Below are positions 6,799 through 14,690 of a stretch of 15,138 nucleotides of DNA, piece after piece. Position numbers and translations under genes: made by a program. How positions within the stretch are numbered: position 1 is the stretch's first letter; each line of letters begins with the position of its first letter. Source of the DNA: Spirochaetaceae bacterium (GTDB lineage Bacteria; Spirochaetota; Spirochaetia; SZUA-6; Bin103); contig JAPOQV010000545.1 of assembly GCA_026710565.1 (NCBI GenBank), positions 1-15,138 on the forward strand, read 5' to 3'. A model generated the notes under the pieces. That model had not been told where the DNA came from and searched no databases. It worked only from the letters and a program-made list of their open reading frames with translations.

Positions 6799-7599
6799 TC
6801 AGGCCGGGCGTTCGTATGAGCGCAGCTCGGCGAGCCCCGCCGTGATCCCCACGGTGCCCAGCGCACCGAGCGAGCCCATGTTGATGAACCGGTACCCCTG
6901 GTCGTATGCCTCCCTGGAGGGCTCGACGCCCGGCCAAGTGATACCCGACGGCTTGCCGAAGGCACCGACCCGCGCCGGAAACTCGGCGATGAACTGCTGC
7001 ACCTTCGGGTGCTGGGGCTGCCCGATGACCCCGAACGACGCCGACAGGTCGGCCGGGCCGGCGAACACGACGTCCACGCCCTCGACGGCCGCGATGGCGT
7101 CCAGGTTGGCGATGCCCTCGGGGCTCTCGATCTGCACGATCACGCAGGTCTCGTCGTTGGCCGCCGGCAGGTAGTCGTCCCAGCTTACGTCCAGGTAGGT
7201 GGTCCAGGTCGGGGTGATGCCGCGCGATCCCTGCGGCGGGTACTTGGCGTACTCGACGGCGCGCTTTGCCTCGTCGGCGGTTCCCACCTGCGGCACCATC
7301 ACCGTGCTGGCGCCGATGTCGAGCGCCTTCTTGATGACGCTGGGGTCGAGGCCGGGGACGCGAACCATGGGCACGACGCCCTTCTGCCGGCACAGGATCG
7401 GCGACCAGCGCACCTCCTCAGCACCGACGGCGCGATGCTCCAGGTCGATCCAGAGGAAGTCGGGGTCGCAGTTGATCGCGAGCTTCGCGGAGTATTCCGA
7501 TTCGTCTATCGCGCCGACGCCCCACGCCGCCTTGCCTGACGACAGCAGCCGCTTGACGCGGTTCTCGAACGCCGGTGCGGCGTTCCCTTCAGAGTTCAT
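6799..7599 (-). CDS. HpcH/HpaI aldolase/citrate lyase family protein
   Basis: 266 aa from ATG 7599; an ATG at 7629 would add ten residues and has AGGGTGG about ten bases upstream, so the start is open. This is a class II, metal-dependent pyruvate aldolase with a TIM-barrel fold that reversibly cleaves 4-hydroxy-2-oxo acids. Counting from 7629, the HpaI active site is visible: WIDLEH with His65, VRVPG with Arg90, IQIESPEG with metal ligand Glu168, and GPADLS with metal ligand Asp194. The spacing matches HpaI His45/Arg70/Glu149/Asp175 closely. The insert QGSRGITP...Y after PQVGTADEAKRAVEYAKYPP is typical of the 2-dehydro-3-deoxy-acid or HKHD aldolase branch. First gene of the minus-strand operon with the phosphoesterase-propeller and M20 peptidase; divergent from the metal transporter, with 143 bp between the starts. 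Confidence 0.9.
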   Translation of the reverse strand: MNSEGNAAPAFENRVKRLLSSGKAAWGVGAIDESEYSAKLAINCDPDFLWIDLEHRAVGAEEVRWSPILCRQKGVVPMVRVPGLDPSVIKKALDIGASTVMVPQVGTADEAKRAVEYAKYPPQGSRGITPTWTTYLDVSWDDYLPAANDETCVIVQIESPEGIANLDAIAAVEGVDVVFAGPADLSASFGVIGQPQHPKVQQFIAEFPARVGAFGKPSGITWPGVEPSREAYDQGYRFINMGSLGALGTVGITAGLAELRSYERPA

Positions 7600-7688
7600 G
7601 ACGCTGCCAGTGTGACGGCATGCATGCACGGCGCGCCACCCTACAGGCGTGGGGTACTCCGGCCGTCCCGGTATCCCCCGGCTCCCGC

Positions 7689-7718
7689 TTGACGCGTCCG
7701 GCCCTCCATGCCTATGGT
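7689..7718 (+). promoter_or_regulatory. Predicted sigma70-like promoter of the metal transporter operon
   Basis: TTGACG (7689-7694) as -35, an 18-nt spacer, and TATGGT (7713-7718) as -10. Transcription would start near 7725, about 18 bases before the lipoprotein ATG and inside the palindrome at 7722-7739. Matches to consensus are 5/6 and 4/6; this is a reading by eye. Confidence 0.5.
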
Positions 7719-7721
7719 CTC

Positions 7722-7739
7722 ATTTTGACGGATCAAAAT
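7722..7739. promoter_or_regulatory. 18-bp palindrome, candidate metal-repressor operator
   Basis: ATTTTGA CGGA TCAAAAT: perfect 7-bp arms around a 4-bp spacer, in an AT-rich island within GC-rich DNA. It overlaps the predicted transcription start and ends three bases before the ATG, where a bound protein would block initiation. Length and dyad form fit DtxR/MntR/TroR-type boxes, and the operon itself encodes a DtxR-like domain. Fur/Zur-type or other dimeric regulators are not excluded. Confidence 0.55.
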
Positions 7740-7742
7740 AGA

Positions 7743-8783
7743 ATGTTCTGGGTGCAAAAAAAAGTGGGGTGGCAGGCCGTGCTCGTGATGGCCGTCGCCG
7801 TGCCGGTGCTCGCCGCCTGCGGCGACGGATCGACACCGGAGCCGGCATCCGCCCTGCCGACCGGCGGCGGCTCCGATGCGCGCAGCTACCCCTACCGGGT
7901 CTCGGCCACCACGGGCATGGTCGCCGACATCGTGCGCCAGGTCGCAGGGGACCGGGGGTCGGTGGTGTCGATCATCGGCGAAGGCGTCGATCCGCACCTG
8001 TACGTGCCGACCCGCAGCGACGTCGCGGCGCTGATGGAAGCCGACATCGTGTTCTACTCGGGGCTTCTCCTGGAAGGCAAGATGACCGACACGCTCATCA
8101 AGGTGGCCGGCAGCCGCCCCGTGCATGCGGTCACCGATCTGGTCGACGAATCCCTGCTGCTGCAGCCGTCGGAGTTCGCAGGCCACTTCGACCCGCACCT
8201 GTGGATGGACGTGTCGGGCTGGACGCAGGCCGTGCACGCGGTCACCGAGGCGCTGGTCGCCTTCGATCCGGACGGGGCGGGCGGCTACCGGGAGCGCGCG
8301 GCGGAATACACCGCGACCCTCGGCGATCTGCACGCCTACGCACTCCGGACCCTGGGCTCGATCCCGGAGCAGCAGCGCATGCTGGTGACCGCCCACGACG
8401 CGTTCAACTACTTCGGCCGCGCCTACGGGCTGGAGGTGGCAGGCATTCAGGGGATCTCGACCGAGTCGGAAGCGGGGCTCGACCGCATCAACCGGCTGGT
8501 GGACCTGCTGGTCACGCGGCGCATCGCGGCGGTGTTCGTGGAGACCACGATCGCCGAACGCAACGTCCGTGCCCTGATCGAGGGGGCGGCTGCGCGCGGC
8601 CACACCGTGGTGGTGGGCGGCGAGCTGTTCTCGGACGCGATGGGGCAGCCGGGAACCTACGAGGGCACCTACGTCGGCATGCTGGACCACAACGTCACCA
8701 CCGTGACGCGGGCGCTGGGCGGCGACGCTCCGGAAGGCGGCTTCCAGGGACTCCTGTCCCACTCCGCCGGGGACGGACCGTGA
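7743..8783 (+). CDS. troA: Metal ABC transporter substrate-binding lipoprotein (TroA-like)
   Basis: 346 aa from ATG 7743. In-frame starts back to 7620 exist but would put about 40 unrelated residues before the signal peptide. The N-terminus is a lipoprotein signal: QKK, a hydrophobic run, then the lipobox LAAC with Cys26. The mature protein is a cluster A-I (ZnuA/TroA/PsaA) binding protein. The four metal ligands are His85 (VDPHLYVP), His152 (FDPHLWMD), His218 (TAHDAF) and Asp298 (LFSDAMG). Their spacing (67, 66, 80) is almost that of T. pallidum TroA (His68, His133, His199, Asp279). The H-H-H-D set is TroA-like, whereas PsaA/MntC types have Glu third; no His-rich loop of ZnuA type is present. 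The cargo is therefore Mn, Zn or Fe, not decidable by eye. The stop overlaps the ATPase start (GTGA). No good Shine-Dalgarno; the predicted leader is very short. Confidence 0.92.
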   Translation: MFWVQKKVGWQAVLVMAVAVPVLAACGDGSTPEPASALPTGGGSDARSYPYRVSATTGMVADIVRQVAGDRGSVVSIIGEGVDPHLYVPTRSDVAALMEADIVFYSGLLLEGKMTDTLIKVAGSRPVHAVTDLVDESLLLQPSEFAGHFDPHLWMDVSGWTQAVHAVTEALVAFDPDGAGGYRERAAEYTATLGDLHAYALRTLGSIPEQQRMLVTAHDAFNYFGRAYGLEVAGIQGISTESEAGLDRINRLVDLLVTRRIAAVFVETTIAERNVRALIEGAAARGHTVVVGGELFSDAMGQPGTYEGTYVGMLDHNVTTVTRALGGDAPEGGFQGLLSHSAGDGP

Positions 8784-9556
8784 ACCGCCCGGCCGGCAGC
8801 CCGCTGACCGTCCGCGGCCTGACCATCGCGTACCGGCGTCGCCCCGTGCTGTGGGACGTCGACGTGACCACCCGTGACGGTGCGATCACGGGCATCGTCG
8901 GCCCCAACGGCGCCGGCAAGAGCACCCTGCTCAAGGGGGTGCTGGACCTGGTGCCGCGGGTGTCGGGGTCGGTGAGCATCTACGGCAAGCCGTACCGGCG
9001 GCAGCGCCCGCTGGTGGCGTACGTGCCGCAGCGCGAGAGCGTGGACTGGGAATACCCGGTGAGCGCGCTCGACCTGGTCGCCATGGGCCTGTACCGGGCG
9101 GTCGGCTGGCTGCGCCCCGTGCGCCGCGCGACGCGCGATGCGGCCCTCGCGGCCATGGACCTGGTCGGGATGGCCGACTACGCCGGCCGTCAGATCTCGG
9201 AGCTCTCCGGCGGACAGCAGCAGCGCCTGTTCCTTGCCCGTGCGCTGGCCCAGGACCCCCGCATCTTCTTCATGGACGAGCCGTTCGCGGGCGTGGACGC
9301 GGCCACCGAGCGCACCATCGTCGACCTGCTGCAGCGCCTGCGGCGGGAGGGCAAGAGCGTCTTCGTGGTCCATCACGACCTGCAGACCGTGGACAGCTAC
9401 TTCGACGACCTGCTGATGCTCAACCTGCGGGTGGTCGCCTACGGGCGGGTCGCCGACGTGTTCACGGACGACAACCTGCACAAGACCTACGGCGGACGGC
9501 TGACCCTGCTGGACCGGGCCGTCGACGCGCTGGGCCGGCGCGGGAGCGGCGCGTGA
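8780..9556 (+). CDS. troB: Metal ABC transporter ATP-binding protein (TroB-like)
   Basis: 258 aa from GTG 8780, in the 4-nt GTGA overlap with the lipoprotein stop. A single ABC ATPase domain: Walker A GPNGAGKST (41-49), Q-loop Gln84 in YVPQRESVDWEYP, signature LSGGQ (142-146), Walker B FFMDEP (163-168, Glu167 catalytic), D-loop AGVD, and H-loop His199 in VVHHDL. The YVPQ...VDWxFP-type Q-loop and the following ALDLVAMG segment are typical of Mn/Zn/Fe ATPases of the TroB/MntB/ZnuC group. It energises the two permeases encoded next. It ends in another GTGA overlap with the first permease. Confidence 0.93.
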   Translation: MNRPAGSPLTVRGLTIAYRRRPVLWDVDVTTRDGAITGIVGPNGAGKSTLLKGVLDLVPRVSGSVSIYGKPYRRQRPLVAYVPQRESVDWEYPVSALDLVAMGLYRAVGWLRPVRRATRDAALAAMDLVGMADYAGRQISELSGGQQQRLFLARALAQDPRIFFMDEPFAGVDAATERTIVDLLQRLRREGKSVFVVHHDLQTVDSYFDDLLMLNLRVVAYGRVADVFTDDNLHKTYGGRLTLLDRAVDALGRRGSGA

Positions 9557-10944
9557 GCTACCTGCCGACGTGGGAGCAGGTGCTGCGCGTGCTCACCCTG
9601 AGCGACTTCAACACGCGCGTCGTCGTGGTCGGGGTCGGCATGCTGGGCATGGCGGCAGGCATCGTCGGCACCTTCACCCTGCTCCGCAAGCGGGCGCTGG
9701 TGTCCGACGCCGTCAGCCACGCGACCCTGCCCGGCATCGCGGCGGCGTGGCTGGTGATGGTGGCGCTCGGCGGCACCGGCAAGTGGTTTCCCGGCCTGCT
9801 GATCGGCGCCGCCGCGGGCGGACTGGCGGCAATCGCGGCCGTGATGGTGGTGCGCACCGTGCTGCGCCTGCACGAGGACGCTGCCCTGGGCATCGTGCTG
9901 TCGGTGTCGTTCGGCGTCGGCATCGCGCTGCTGGGCATGATCCAGCAGATGCGGCGCGGCTCGGCCGCCGGGCTCGACTCGTTCATCTACGGCAAGACGG
10001 CGTCGATGCTGGTCTCCGACGCCCTGCTGATCGGGGTGATCTCGCTGGTGCTGGTGGTGATCGCCGCCCTGCTGTTCAAAGAATTGAACATGCTGTGCTT
10101 CGACGCCGACTACGCCGCGTCGCAAGGGCTGCCGGTCGGGGTTCTGGACGTGCTGATGCTGGCGCTGGTGGTGGCGGTCACGGTGATCGGGCTGCAGGCG
10201 GTGGGGTTGATCCTGATCGTCGCCCTGTTGATCACTCCTGCCGCCGCCGCGCGTTTCTGGACGTACAACCTGCGCAGGATGACGATCCTGTCGGCCGTCA
10301 TCGGCGCGCTGGGAGGCTTCGTCGGTGCCGCGCTGTCGGCGCTGGTGCCGCGCCTGCCGGCCGGGGCGGTCATCGTCGCGACCACCGCGGTCGGCTTCGT
10401 CATCAGCGTCCTGTTCGGCACCCGCCGCGGGCTGCTGCGGATGCTCATCGAGCGCCACCGGAGCGACCGCCGGATCCGGCGCGAGCACCTGCTGCGCGCG
10501 GCGTTCGAGCAGGTCGAGGGGCGGCTCGGCGCCACCCCGAGCCGCGCCGATCTGCAGGCCGCGGCCGTCAACCGGGCGCAGTTGGCCCATCGCCGCGGAT
10601 GGACCGGGGGCGAGCTGGCCGTTGCGATGCGGGTCGGGCGCCGGGACCGCCTGCTGCAGCCGGCGCCGCTCGACCCGGACTCCTTGCGGCTGACGCCCAC
10701 CGGCGCCGCCCAGGCGCTGCAGCTCGTGCGCAACCACCGGTTGTGGGAGCTGTACCTGATCCGCCACGCGGAGGTGGCCACCAGCCGCGTGGACCGTGGC
10801 GCCGACCGCATCGAGCACGTGCTGGAGCCCGACCTGGTCGCGGAGCTGGAGGCGGAGCTCGACGGCCACGCGGAATCGGCGGCGGTGGCCGCAAGCCCGC
10901 ACGAGCTGGCCGGTCCCCGCGAGCCGAGGGGCAACGACACGTGA
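9553..10944 (+). CDS. troC: Metal ABC transporter permease with C-terminal DtxR/MntR-like domain (TroC-like)
   Basis: 463 aa from GTG 9553. Residues 1-300 are an ABC-3 family permease with about eight hydrophobic segments and family motifs LLRKRALVSDAVSHATLPG (43-61), GIVLSVSFGVGIALL, LFKELNMLCFDADYAASQG (174-192) and ITPAAAARF. Permeases of this family normally end near 280-300 residues. Here about 160 more follow. After a basic linker comes a possible degenerate winged helix (310-380), then LTPTGAAQALQLVRNHRLWELYL and VDRGADRIEHVL, which align with the DtxR/MntR dimerisation helices. His395 and Glu399 correspond to DtxR His79 and Glu83; Asp414, Asp418, Glu421 and His422 to His98, Cys102, Glu105 and His106. 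The fused domain is probably cytosolic. Similar permease-repressor fusions exist in other bacteria as far as I recall; their function is unproven. Overlaps the second permease by GTGA. Confidence 0.9.
   Translation: MSYLPTWEQVLRVLTLSDFNTRVVVVGVGMLGMAAGIVGTFTLLRKRALVSDAVSHATLPGIAAAWLVMVALGGTGKWFPGLLIGAAAGGLAAIAAVMVVRTVLRLHEDAALGIVLSVSFGVGIALLGMIQQMRRGSAAGLDSFIYGKTASMLVSDALLIGVISLVLVVIAALLFKELNMLCFDADYAASQGLPVGVLDVLMLALVVAVTVIGLQAVGLILIVALLITPAAAARFWTYNLRRMTILSAVIGALGGFVGAALSALVPRLPAGAVIVATTAVGFVISVLFGTRRGLLRMLIERHRSDRRIRREHLLRAAFEQVEGRLGATPSRADLQAAAVNRAQLAHRRGWTGGELAVAMRVGRRDRLLQPAPLDPDSLRLTPTGAAQALQLVRNHRLWELYLIRHAEVATSRVDRGADRIEHVLEPDLVAELEAELDGHAESAAVAASPHELAGPREPRGNDT
10459..10863 (+). other. 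Fused DtxR/MntR-like metal-sensing domain inside the first permease
   Basis: Covers residues 303-437 of the permease. The C-terminal half keeps the repressor metal-site pattern RNHRLWELYL and ADRIEHVL, with Asp replacing the primary-site Cys (MntR has Glu there) and the ancillary His98. The N-terminal half (REHLLRAAFE to LDPDSLRLTPTG) has the length of a winged helix, but the recognition-helix region is weakly conserved by eye. It could sense cytosolic metal and gate transport, dimerise the transporter, or retain DNA binding; none of these is shown by sequence alone. Confidence 0.72.
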
Positions 10945-11897
10945 CCTGGACGTCCCTCGACACCGGCATCGTGGTGGTGGCCGCGGTCAGCGCCCTCGCG
11001 TCGGCGCTGATCGGCAGCTTTCTGGTGCTGCGGCGCATGAGCATGATGGGCGATGCCATCAGCCACGCCGTGCTACCCGGCATCGCCGTCGCGTTCCTTG
11101 CCACGCTCAGCCGCGATACCGGCGTGATCGTGATCGGCGCCGCGGTCGCCGGCCTGCTCACCGCCGCCTTCACGCAGCTCATCCATCAGGTGGGTAACGT
11201 GGACCGCGGCGCGGCCATGGGCGTGGTGTTCACCACCATGTTCGCGGTCGGCCTGATCCTGATCGTGCGCAGTGCCGACTCCGTGCACATCGACGTGCAC
11301 ACGGTCTTCTACGGTTCGGTCGAGCTGGCGCCGCTCAACGACGTGGTGGTGGCTGGCGTGCGCATGCCGCGCGCGCTCCTGATCCTTGGTGCGGTGTTCG
11401 CGGCCGACCTCGCCTTCGTCCTGGTGCTGTTCAAGGAGCTCAACCTCACCTCCTTCGACGAGGACTTCGCGCGCTCGATCGGCTGCAACGCCCGCCTCAT
11501 GCACTACGGGCTGATGGTGATGGTGGCGGTGACCATCGTCGCGGCGTTCGAGAGCGTCGGCAGCATCCTGGTGATCGCGATGCTGATCGTGCCCGGCGTG
11601 GTGGCAGGCCTGTTCACCCGCCGGCTCTGGTCGCTGCTGGTGTTCGGCCAGGGGGTGGCGTTGGTATGCGCCGTCGGCGGACACGTCGGCGCGATCACGG
11701 TGCCCCGCTGGTTCGGGCTGGCCGACACCAGCACCGCCGGGATGATGACCGTGGTGGCCGGCGTCGTGGTCGTGGTGGCGCTGGTGGCCGCCCCGGAACG
11801 CGGCCTTGCCGCGCGAGCCCTCCACCGTCTCCGTGCTACCCGTCAGGCGCCGCGCCAGTCGAACACGACGCCCAGCATCTCCTTCTCGCGGCGGTAA
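10941..11897 (+). CDS. troD: Metal ABC transporter permease, second subunit (TroD-like)
   Basis: 318 aa from GTG 10941 (GTGA overlap). ABC-3 family permease with motifs LVLRRMSMMGDAISHAVLPG (28-47), AAMGVVFTTMF (91-101), LFKELNLTSFDEDFARSIG (163-181) and SVGSILVIAMLIVPGVVA (205-222). About eight membrane segments are visible, ending near residue 284. It presumably pairs with the longer first permease as a heterodimer, as TroC/TroD do. It has no repressor-like extension. The last ~30 residues are polar and basic (RALHRLRATRQAPRQSNTTP), and the final 55 bases lie antisense to the end of the dehydrogenase gene. The tail may therefore simply reflect readthrough into the neighbouring gene before a stop was met. 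Confidence 0.92.
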   Translation: MTWTSLDTGIVVVAAVSALASALIGSFLVLRRMSMMGDAISHAVLPGIAVAFLATLSRDTGVIVIGAAVAGLLTAAFTQLIHQVGNVDRGAAMGVVFTTMFAVGLILIVRSADSVHIDVHTVFYGSVELAPLNDVVVAGVRMPRALLILGAVFAADLAFVLVLFKELNLTSFDEDFARSIGCNARLMHYGLMVMVAVTIVAAFESVGSILVIAMLIVPGVVAGLFTRRLWSLLVFGQGVALVCAVGGHVGAITVPRWFGLADTSTAGMMTVVAGVVVVVALVAAPERGLAARALHRLRATRQAPRQSNTTPSISFSRR

Positions 11898-14145: not shown

Positions 14146-14379
14146 ATGAAAGCCATACAAGTGATGTTCGACGAGGCGCTGCTCGCGCGGCTCGACGCAT
14201 CGGAGGAGGTGCGGCGGGAGGGACGCTCGGCGGTACTGCGGCGGGCCGCGGAGCAGTTCCTGCATCGCATGGAGCAGAGGTCCCTCGATGTCCAGTATCG
14301 GAAAGCCTACGAAGGGGTGGACGTCCTGGGTGAGGAGTTCTCGGGCTGGGAGCACCAAGGCGCGTGGCCCGCGAACTGA
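14146..14379 (+). CDS. MazE-like ribbon-helix-helix antitoxin
   Basis: 77 aa. Residues 1-40 form a ribbon-helix-helix DNA-binding domain: the strand KAIQVMFDEALLARLD, then a helix of EEVRREGRSAVLRRAAEQFL. The C-terminal tail QYRKAYEGVD...GEEFSGWEHQGAWP has the Y-x(3)-Y and W-E-x(3)-A-W-P pattern of antitoxins that wrap around MazF toxins. It overlaps the toxin gene by 16 bases, typical for type II pairs, and most likely represses its own promoter through sites such as TGATATCA just upstream. The symbol is left empty because the fold differs from E. coli MazE (AbrB-type). Confidence 0.85.
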   Translation: MKAIQVMFDEALLARLDASEEVRREGRSAVLRRAAEQFLHRMEQRSLDVQYRKAYEGVDVLGEEFSGWEHQGAWPAN

Positions 14380-14690
14380 AGCGCGGGGAGATCTGGCTCT
14401 ACGCGTTCAAGGCTCCTGACAAACGCCGGCCCGTGTTGATCATCAGCCGGCAGGCGGCACTCCGGTTCCTGCGAACGGCCCTGATCGCTCCCGTCACTTC
14501 GACGATCCATGGTTCTCCGGCCGAGGTGCTGGTCGGAGTCGCCGAGGGCCTCAAGCATCCATCGGCGGTCAATCTCGACCACGTTCAGACGGTGGAGCAG
14601 TCACTCCTGCACCAGTTCATAGGGACCGTCGATGCTGACACCATGCGGCGGGTCTGCCGGGCGCTGGCTGTCGCTACCGGTTGCGCCTGA
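14364..14690 (+). CDS. mazF: MazF/PemK-family endoribonuclease toxin
   Basis: 108 aa from GTG 14364 inside the antitoxin reading region. The PemK/MazF barrel is recognisable from RGEIWLYAF (7-15), then RRPVLIIS (21-28, conserved Arg22-Pro23), ALIAPVTSTI (39-48, Thr45-Ser46) and SAVNLDHVQTV (67-77). Arg22 and Thr45 match the positions used by MazF for RNA cleavage. The loop between the first two strands is short and lacks the usual PxxGxE. Length is normal and the gene looks intact. It cleaves single-stranded mRNA when freed from the antitoxin; cleavage specificity cannot be read from sequence. It is convergent with the 2-hydroxyacid dehydrogenase, 14 bases away. Confidence 0.9.
   Translation: MARELKRGEIWLYAFKAPDKRRPVLIISRQAALRFLRTALIAPVTSTIHGSPAEVLVGVAEGLKHPSAVNLDHVQTVEQSLLHQFIGTVDADTMRRVCRALAVATGCA

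Follow-up and report, generated by a model that had tools for sequence, protein, structure and literature searches.

The window, by which we mean the whole stretch analysed here, comprises the 15,138 nucleotides of contig JAPOQV010000545.1 (GenBank assembly GCA_026710565.1) from a Spirochaetaceae bacterium, and it contains a four-gene operon in which the first of two ATP-binding cassette (ABC) permeases is fused to a DtxR-like domain (Table 1). The genes for a substrate-binding lipoprotein (SBP), an ATPase, the fused permease and a second permease run head to tail, each overlap being GTGA. For the SBP, the ATG at 7743 is the probable true start of a listed open reading frame (ORF) that begins at 7620, and a signal peptide with LAAC could be read from the sequence. 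Among solved structures, its best match was TroA (1toa, E 9e-73), with the best non-TroA structure being 3mfq (2.7e-45). The ATPase (258 residues) has manganese/iron ABC ATPases as its best NCBIfam models, but with scores under their cut-offs, and Pfam gave it no regulatory domain; nor did Pfam give PF02742 in the second permease of the window. Since a ZnuA/TroA-type SBP, an ATPase and ABC-3 permeases occur in one operon, as in Tro/Psa/Mnt-type importers, the operon is, as judged from its genes, a Tro-type Mn/Fe/Zn ABC importer with TroA, TroB and two permeases.

Table 1. Features of the metal operon and its promoter region (positions in the window; conservation counted over 63 aligned sequences)
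Feature	Position	Strand	Evidence or remark
Sigma-70-like promoter TTGACG-18-TATGGT	7689..7718	+	1 match against a mean of 0.0 in 50 shuffles of 7560-7860
Candidate operator ATTTTGA-CGGA-TCAAAAT	7722..7739	.	Perfect inverted repeat
TroA-like SBP	7743..8783	+	Pfam ZnuA PF01297, E 1.4e-70
ABC ATPase, TroB/MntA-like	8780..9556	+	PF00005, E 1.4e-25
Permease 1 fused to DtxR-like domain, whole gene, 463 residues	9553..10944	+	
ABC-3 membrane domain, residues 23-288	9619..10416	+	Pfam
DtxR-like domain (D1), residues 305-450: winged helix and metal-binding/dimerisation domain	10465..10902	+	PF02742, AF2 model, DtxR/MntR matches
H312 codon, position of DtxR Met10/MntR Asp8	10486..10488	+	H in 55/63; on helix 294-325
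Helix 352-364 at the DNA-recognition helix position, sequence relaxed	10606..10644	+	AF2 model, conservation
HRLWE block: H395, E399 at DtxR His79, Glu83 positions	10735..10749	+	63/63 each
DRGADRIEH block: D414, D418, E421, H422 at DtxR 98, 102, 105, 106 positions	10792..10818	+	63, 62, 63, 63 of 63
C-terminal SPH motif: S448, P449, H450	10894..10902	+	62, 63, 63 of 63
Permease 2, unfused in the window	10941..11897	+	PF00950, E 4.4e-44

That the first permease carries a DtxR/MntR-like C-terminal domain, as the original prediction held, is borne out by a Pfam match to Fe_dep_repr_C (PF02742) at residues 381-437 (E 8e-13) and by a predicted order of ABC-3, winged-helix and metal-binding domains. 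In the AlphaFold2 (AF2) model, built from the 63 aligned sequences with a predicted local distance difference test score (pLDDT) of 84, residues 305-447 align with DtxR 3-130, and the unlike fold that had been named as evidence against the prediction was thus not found. Here, the winged helix consists of helices 341-348 and 352-364 with strands 368-370 and 377-380, and is followed by a helical metal domain, whereas the SH3 domain is absent. Moreover, the last membrane helix (270-288) is soon followed by a single continuous helix (294-325) that runs past the ligand His312, with no flexible linker predicted between the membrane domain and the sensor, an arrangement still compatible with proteolytic release. 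The model is weak at residues 411-422 (pLDDT below 50), where four of the ligands lie, and a clustering of the ligands into two sites is presumed from their conserved positions.

For the ligands, placement was by alignment onto DtxR, with the usual ligand numbering of DtxR and MntR. The five positions originally proposed (His395, Glu399, Asp418, Glu421 and His422) all held, and His312 and Asp414 complete the set, so that the DtxR metal ligands are conserved as in YtgCR of Chlamydia, with Asp414 at the position of DtxR His98. Averaged over the 63 sequences, the metal half is the best conserved of three regions, at 3.30 bits, followed by the membrane domain (3.12) and the recognition region (2.08).

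The fusion is widespread, with both Pfam domains found in all 120 of the homologues that made up the best 120 of 4962 scored matches. A genome scan gave 397 loci, of which we analysed the 80 best; these are mostly from Planctomycetota and Verrucomicrobiota and include two from Spirochaetes (L001, 87% identical; L060, 84%), and in all 80 of them permease 1 is fused. The L060 copy is split over two frames at 8001-9426 in the assembly of Spirochaetaceae bin103, while a close relative (P0052) is intact; for this locus, we reassigned two entries by hand, taking the D1 piece out of the stand-alone list and shifting the second-permease domain from D1 to D2. Here, D2 denotes a DtxR-like domain on the second permease, which 26 of these 80 loci possess; five of the 80 (L011, L013, L038, L052 and L074) have no whole second permease. 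Six of the seven ligand positions are invariant in D2 (26/26), and the variable one, at DtxR 102, is Glu in 15/26. As D2 is present in L060 and G041 (L113) but absent from the window and L001, the domain was probably lost in the lineage of the window. At its 3' end, the gene for permease 2 shares about 55 nucleotides (11843-11897) with a convergent gene for a zinc-type alcohol dehydrogenase, and it is exactly at this overlap that the D2 domain of the relatives is missing.

In a tree of 20 of the 81 D1 sequences, 26 D2 and 31 stand-alone repressors, D1 and D2 each formed one clade and both together stood apart from the repressors (support 100/98, the bootstrap not being fully settled). This split suggests a single old fusion in other phyla, with a later arrival in the spirochaete family, where three of the four genomes examined have the fused domain; in a sample of 296 Spirochaetota genomes, only G001 has it at E <= 1e-15. 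Three close relatives (P0022, P0025 and P0027) are 618-624 residues long, and in P0022 and P0027 a long repetitive insert separates the recognition helix from the metal half, which also suggests that the helix-turn-helix (HTH) is under weak constraint. Distant from the metal operon, two DtxR-like ORFs of 353-366 residues (L119 and L120) have a D2-like RAHRLWE or RAHRLTE block and are possibly another fusion.

The original prediction had noted that the window holds no stand-alone repressor gene and had proposed a survey of whether genomes with the fusion lack a separate mntR or troR. They do not. A search for PF02742 in 40 fused genomes, chosen from the 80 loci, revealed a stand-alone DtxR gene, outside the permeases, in 39, so that in these the fused domain is not the sole such regulator, unlike what is stated for Chlamydia. 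These counts come from the genomes of relatives rather than from that of the window, and most are metagenome-assembled genomes of unstated completeness. The two nearest genomes examined (G001 and G002) have two stand-alone DtxR genes each, on contigs other than that of the operon, and each includes a TroR-type repressor (L082 and L081, respectively), defined as a full-length repressor with a [PA]GT[AVI]T.M recognition motif, the types being assigned by this motif and entered by hand. In all, 20 genomes, both spirochaetes included, have this type.

One type of stand-alone repressor is associated with the candidate operator, which lies 3 nucleotides downstream of the -10 hexamer and 3 upstream of the SBP start codon. 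The TTGACG-18-TATGGT promoter is found unchanged at the corresponding place in L001, and the palindrome is conserved in L001, L060 and L113. With 4 of 81 loci dropped for want of a usable region upstream of the SBP, AYTTTGANNNNTCAAART with at most one mismatch was found upstream of 37/77 operons, that of the window included (36/76 relatives), the symmetric variant ACTTTGA-N4-TCAAAGT being counted together with ATTTTGA-N4-TCAAAAT, and the reversed pattern in 0/77. More conspicuously, in a table of 39 genomes (L069 being left out of the 40), the operator is present in 19/20 genomes with the TroR type, L066 being the one without it, versus 0/19 without the type (Fisher 3e-10, a value that overstates independence because the genomes are related and that serves as a guide only). 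Three near misses (G014 with TGTATAM; G011 and G029 with PGTVSAV) were counted as non-type without an operator, and counting them as the TroR type gives 19/23 versus 0/16. The remaining unfused PF02742 matches, inspected afterwards, altered no repressor label. A stand-alone DtxR frame in divergent orientation overlaps the operator, or comes within about 90 nucleotides of it, in L002, L053 and L079. The operator does not follow the fused domain, which is present with and without it alike.

Elsewhere in the genomes the pattern is sparse. In both G001 and G002 the operator upstream of the SBP gene is the sole genomic site with up to 2 mismatches, and we rejected the palindrome as the mark of a wide regulon. 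The 40 fused genomes have 0 to 2 exact AYTTTGANNNNTCAAART matches each (18/40 have one; reversed control, 3/40), and those in G009, G019, G033 and G038, all of which lack the TroR type, lie apart from the metal operon and look like chance. In Spirochaetota at large, the pattern was found in 88/296 genomes, where the reversed control matches too, and six sites inspected had no SBP or ABC-3 match nearby, with an ABC ATPase near one; the bare pattern is therefore informative at this operon only. Two Verrucomicrobiota, G006 and G008, have another exact copy of the operator at the start codon of a gene named by eye as TonB-receptor-like (L140, 2775-2792; L141, 2572-2589), which might fit a metal-uptake regulon; in L141, the reading frame becomes different shortly beyond this copy. 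No operator was found in L005 (which has no usable upstream region), L010, L012, L016, L017, L021, L036, L050 and L058, where there is a different, shorter DtxR gene nearby with a SHVT/THVT-type recognition motif.

The 20 genomes that carry both the fused domain and a TroR-type repressor allowed a matched comparison by mean pairwise identity. Here, the metal halves are equally conserved (0.684 in the fused domain versus 0.683 in the stand-alone repressor) and helix 1 is more so in the fused domain (0.69 versus 0.54), whereas the recognition helix falls to 0.387 in the fused domain versus 0.615 in the repressor, with the larger drop in the fused domain in 98.9% of 190 pairs. On whether the recognition helix is intact, a check that came with the original prediction, the answer is thus divided, since helix 352-364 is indeed predicted, but its sequence is relaxed rather than conserved as in DtxR and TroR-type repressors, and the GT[AVI]T.M motif of the repressors is absent from all 20 fused domains compared. 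The retention of the metal half alongside the relaxed helix suggests that selection on the fused domain maintains metal sensing rather than a preference for one DNA sequence.

We therefore favour, at what we judge to be an even chance, a reading in which the DtxR-derived domain is a cytosolic metal sensor on permease 1 that trans-inhibits the importer, with a separate TroR-like repressor handling transcription. Ample cytosolic metal would bind His312, Asp414, Asp418, Glu421 and His422 together with His395 and Glu399; the metal-bound domain would close against helix 294-325, the continuation of the membrane domain that bears His312; and the closed domain would hold the permease and the ATPases in a non-transporting state. 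The change may reach the permease, and thereby slow transport, because the His312-bearing helix starts beside the membrane domain. Transcription would be controlled separately by the stand-alone TroR-like repressor on palindrome 7722-7739. Of the two roles originally put forward, direct sensing fits the comparative evidence better, and a membrane-tethered repressor fits it less well in view of the separate repressors, the operator link and the relaxed helix; as a binder of the operon's own operator, the fused domain has indirect evidence against it, in that the operator tracks the TroR type and the recognition helix is relaxed.

Several points weigh against the sensor reading. The HTH is still folded in the AF2 model and its helix is arginine-rich (Arg at 360 in 41/63), so that DNA binding by the fused domain could still take place, and in Chlamydia a domain in this architecture functions as a repressor after its release. 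Moreover, the regulatory domain of MetNI and ModABC is on the ATPase and not on the permease, and with a single sensor in each pump of the window, presumed to be a heterodimer, MetNI-like dimer-based gating would need two pumps. In addition, G020 has the fused gene and no other PF02742 match (the completeness of this genome being unstated), and the 39 genomes of the operator table are mutually related, with motif-assigned repressor types.

The closest parallel is YtgCR of Chlamydia trachomatis (CT069; ytgABCD), and the statement in the original prediction that such fusions occur elsewhere was thus correct. Three papers (PMC5599777, PMC6504234, PMC7755916) describe YtgR as being freed from YtgC by cleavage and as repressing ytgABCD. 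By that published description, the likeness consists of an ABC metal permease with a C-terminal DtxR-like domain in a single frame, conserved ligands and a four-gene SBP-ATPase-permease-permease operon; the difference is that the nearest relatives examined keep two stand-alone DtxR genes each and that the palindrome tracks one type. The architecture itself is therefore already known, and what is new, from these comparisons, is the evidence against an autorepressor role in the lineage of the window. At the level of titles and the starts of abstracts, a coverage that leaves out most subscription papers, we found no fusions outside Chlamydia in print.

An alternative built on this parallel, which we consider unlikely, is that proteolysis frees the domain from the permease and that it then acts, as a metal-dependent dimer, as a repressor of its own operon at palindrome 7722-7739. 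The chlamydial domain, with the same order in a transporter operon, is by experiment a released iron-dependent autorepressor, the palindrome sits at the promoter of the operon in the window and the model retains a folded winged helix. However, the palindrome tracks the stand-alone TroR type, with the fused domain found also in 19 genomes without the palindrome, the TroR-type frame is itself the divergent neighbour of the palindrome in L002, L053 and L079, the recognition helix is relaxed and no flexible linker is predicted. Alternatively, the DtxR dimerisation surface might be a docking site for the stand-alone TroR-like repressor, thereby coupling repression to transporter abundance or state. 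Strong conservation of the metal/dimerisation half without that of the recognition helix, and the co-occurrence of the two proteins, would agree with this, but fused domains are found also in genomes without the TroR type, and a deep split separates D1 and D2 from the repressors, which makes docking decidedly unlikely in our estimate. Nor do we think it at all probable that the domain is a cytosolic metal acceptor or a stability element, relieving the pump of its metal or targeting the pump for proteolysis, with no allosteric gating; the conserved ligand set would suit such a role, but it leaves unexplained why several phyla have retained the complete sensor fold with its winged helix. That the domain is a vestige of an old fusion with no present function is scarcely credible, as its metal half is more conserved than the membrane domain, the probable loss of D2 notwithstanding.

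The preferred sensor reading finds its functional parallel in MetNI and ModABC, where transinhibition through fused cytosolic domains is established, substrate on the cytosolic C-terminal domain stopping import (PMC10710835). The likeness is a proposed one, and the regulatory domain there has another fold and lies on the ATPase, whereas that of the window is DtxR-derived and lies on the permease. Compared with DtxR, IdeR and MntR, residues 305-447 share the fold and the ligand positions, and differ in the replaced and relaxed recognition-helix motif, the missing SH3 domain, the Asp at the His98 position and the membrane fusion. TroC of Treponema pallidum is not known to carry such a fused domain. 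The TroABCD/TroR system of this species is nevertheless similar in that the SBP is nearest to TroA among solved structures and a full-length stand-alone repressor of the DtxR family is found in the relatives; it differs in that these repressors are on contigs apart from the operon in G001 and G002. TroR itself represses the troABCDR operon in a Mn-dependent manner (PMC5599777).

More tentatively, and at somewhat under an even chance, the sensor reading may extend to a class of importers with a DtxR-derived allosteric sensor on the permease, often on both permeases (D1 and D2 in many lineages), and with TroR for transcription, YtgR then being a secondary use as a repressor after the genome had lost its stand-alone one. 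The shut-off of metal ABC importers in replete cells is for the most part attributed to transcription. If real, a permease-borne sensor would add a fast and direct layer of control, shared by several phyla, and the chlamydial YtgR, so far treated as an oddity, would be one use of an older sensor. Moreover, the palindrome and its matched stand-alone repressor offer a clean means of separating the two control layers in one operon.

Apart from the operon, the window contains at 718-2420 an AAA_21 ATPase gene followed by one for DUF4276, which match the PADLOC candidate defence pair HEC-01A (E 2e-116) and HEC-01B (E 3e-55), and at 14364-14690 a PemK/MazF-like toxin gene (PF02452, E 1e-19).
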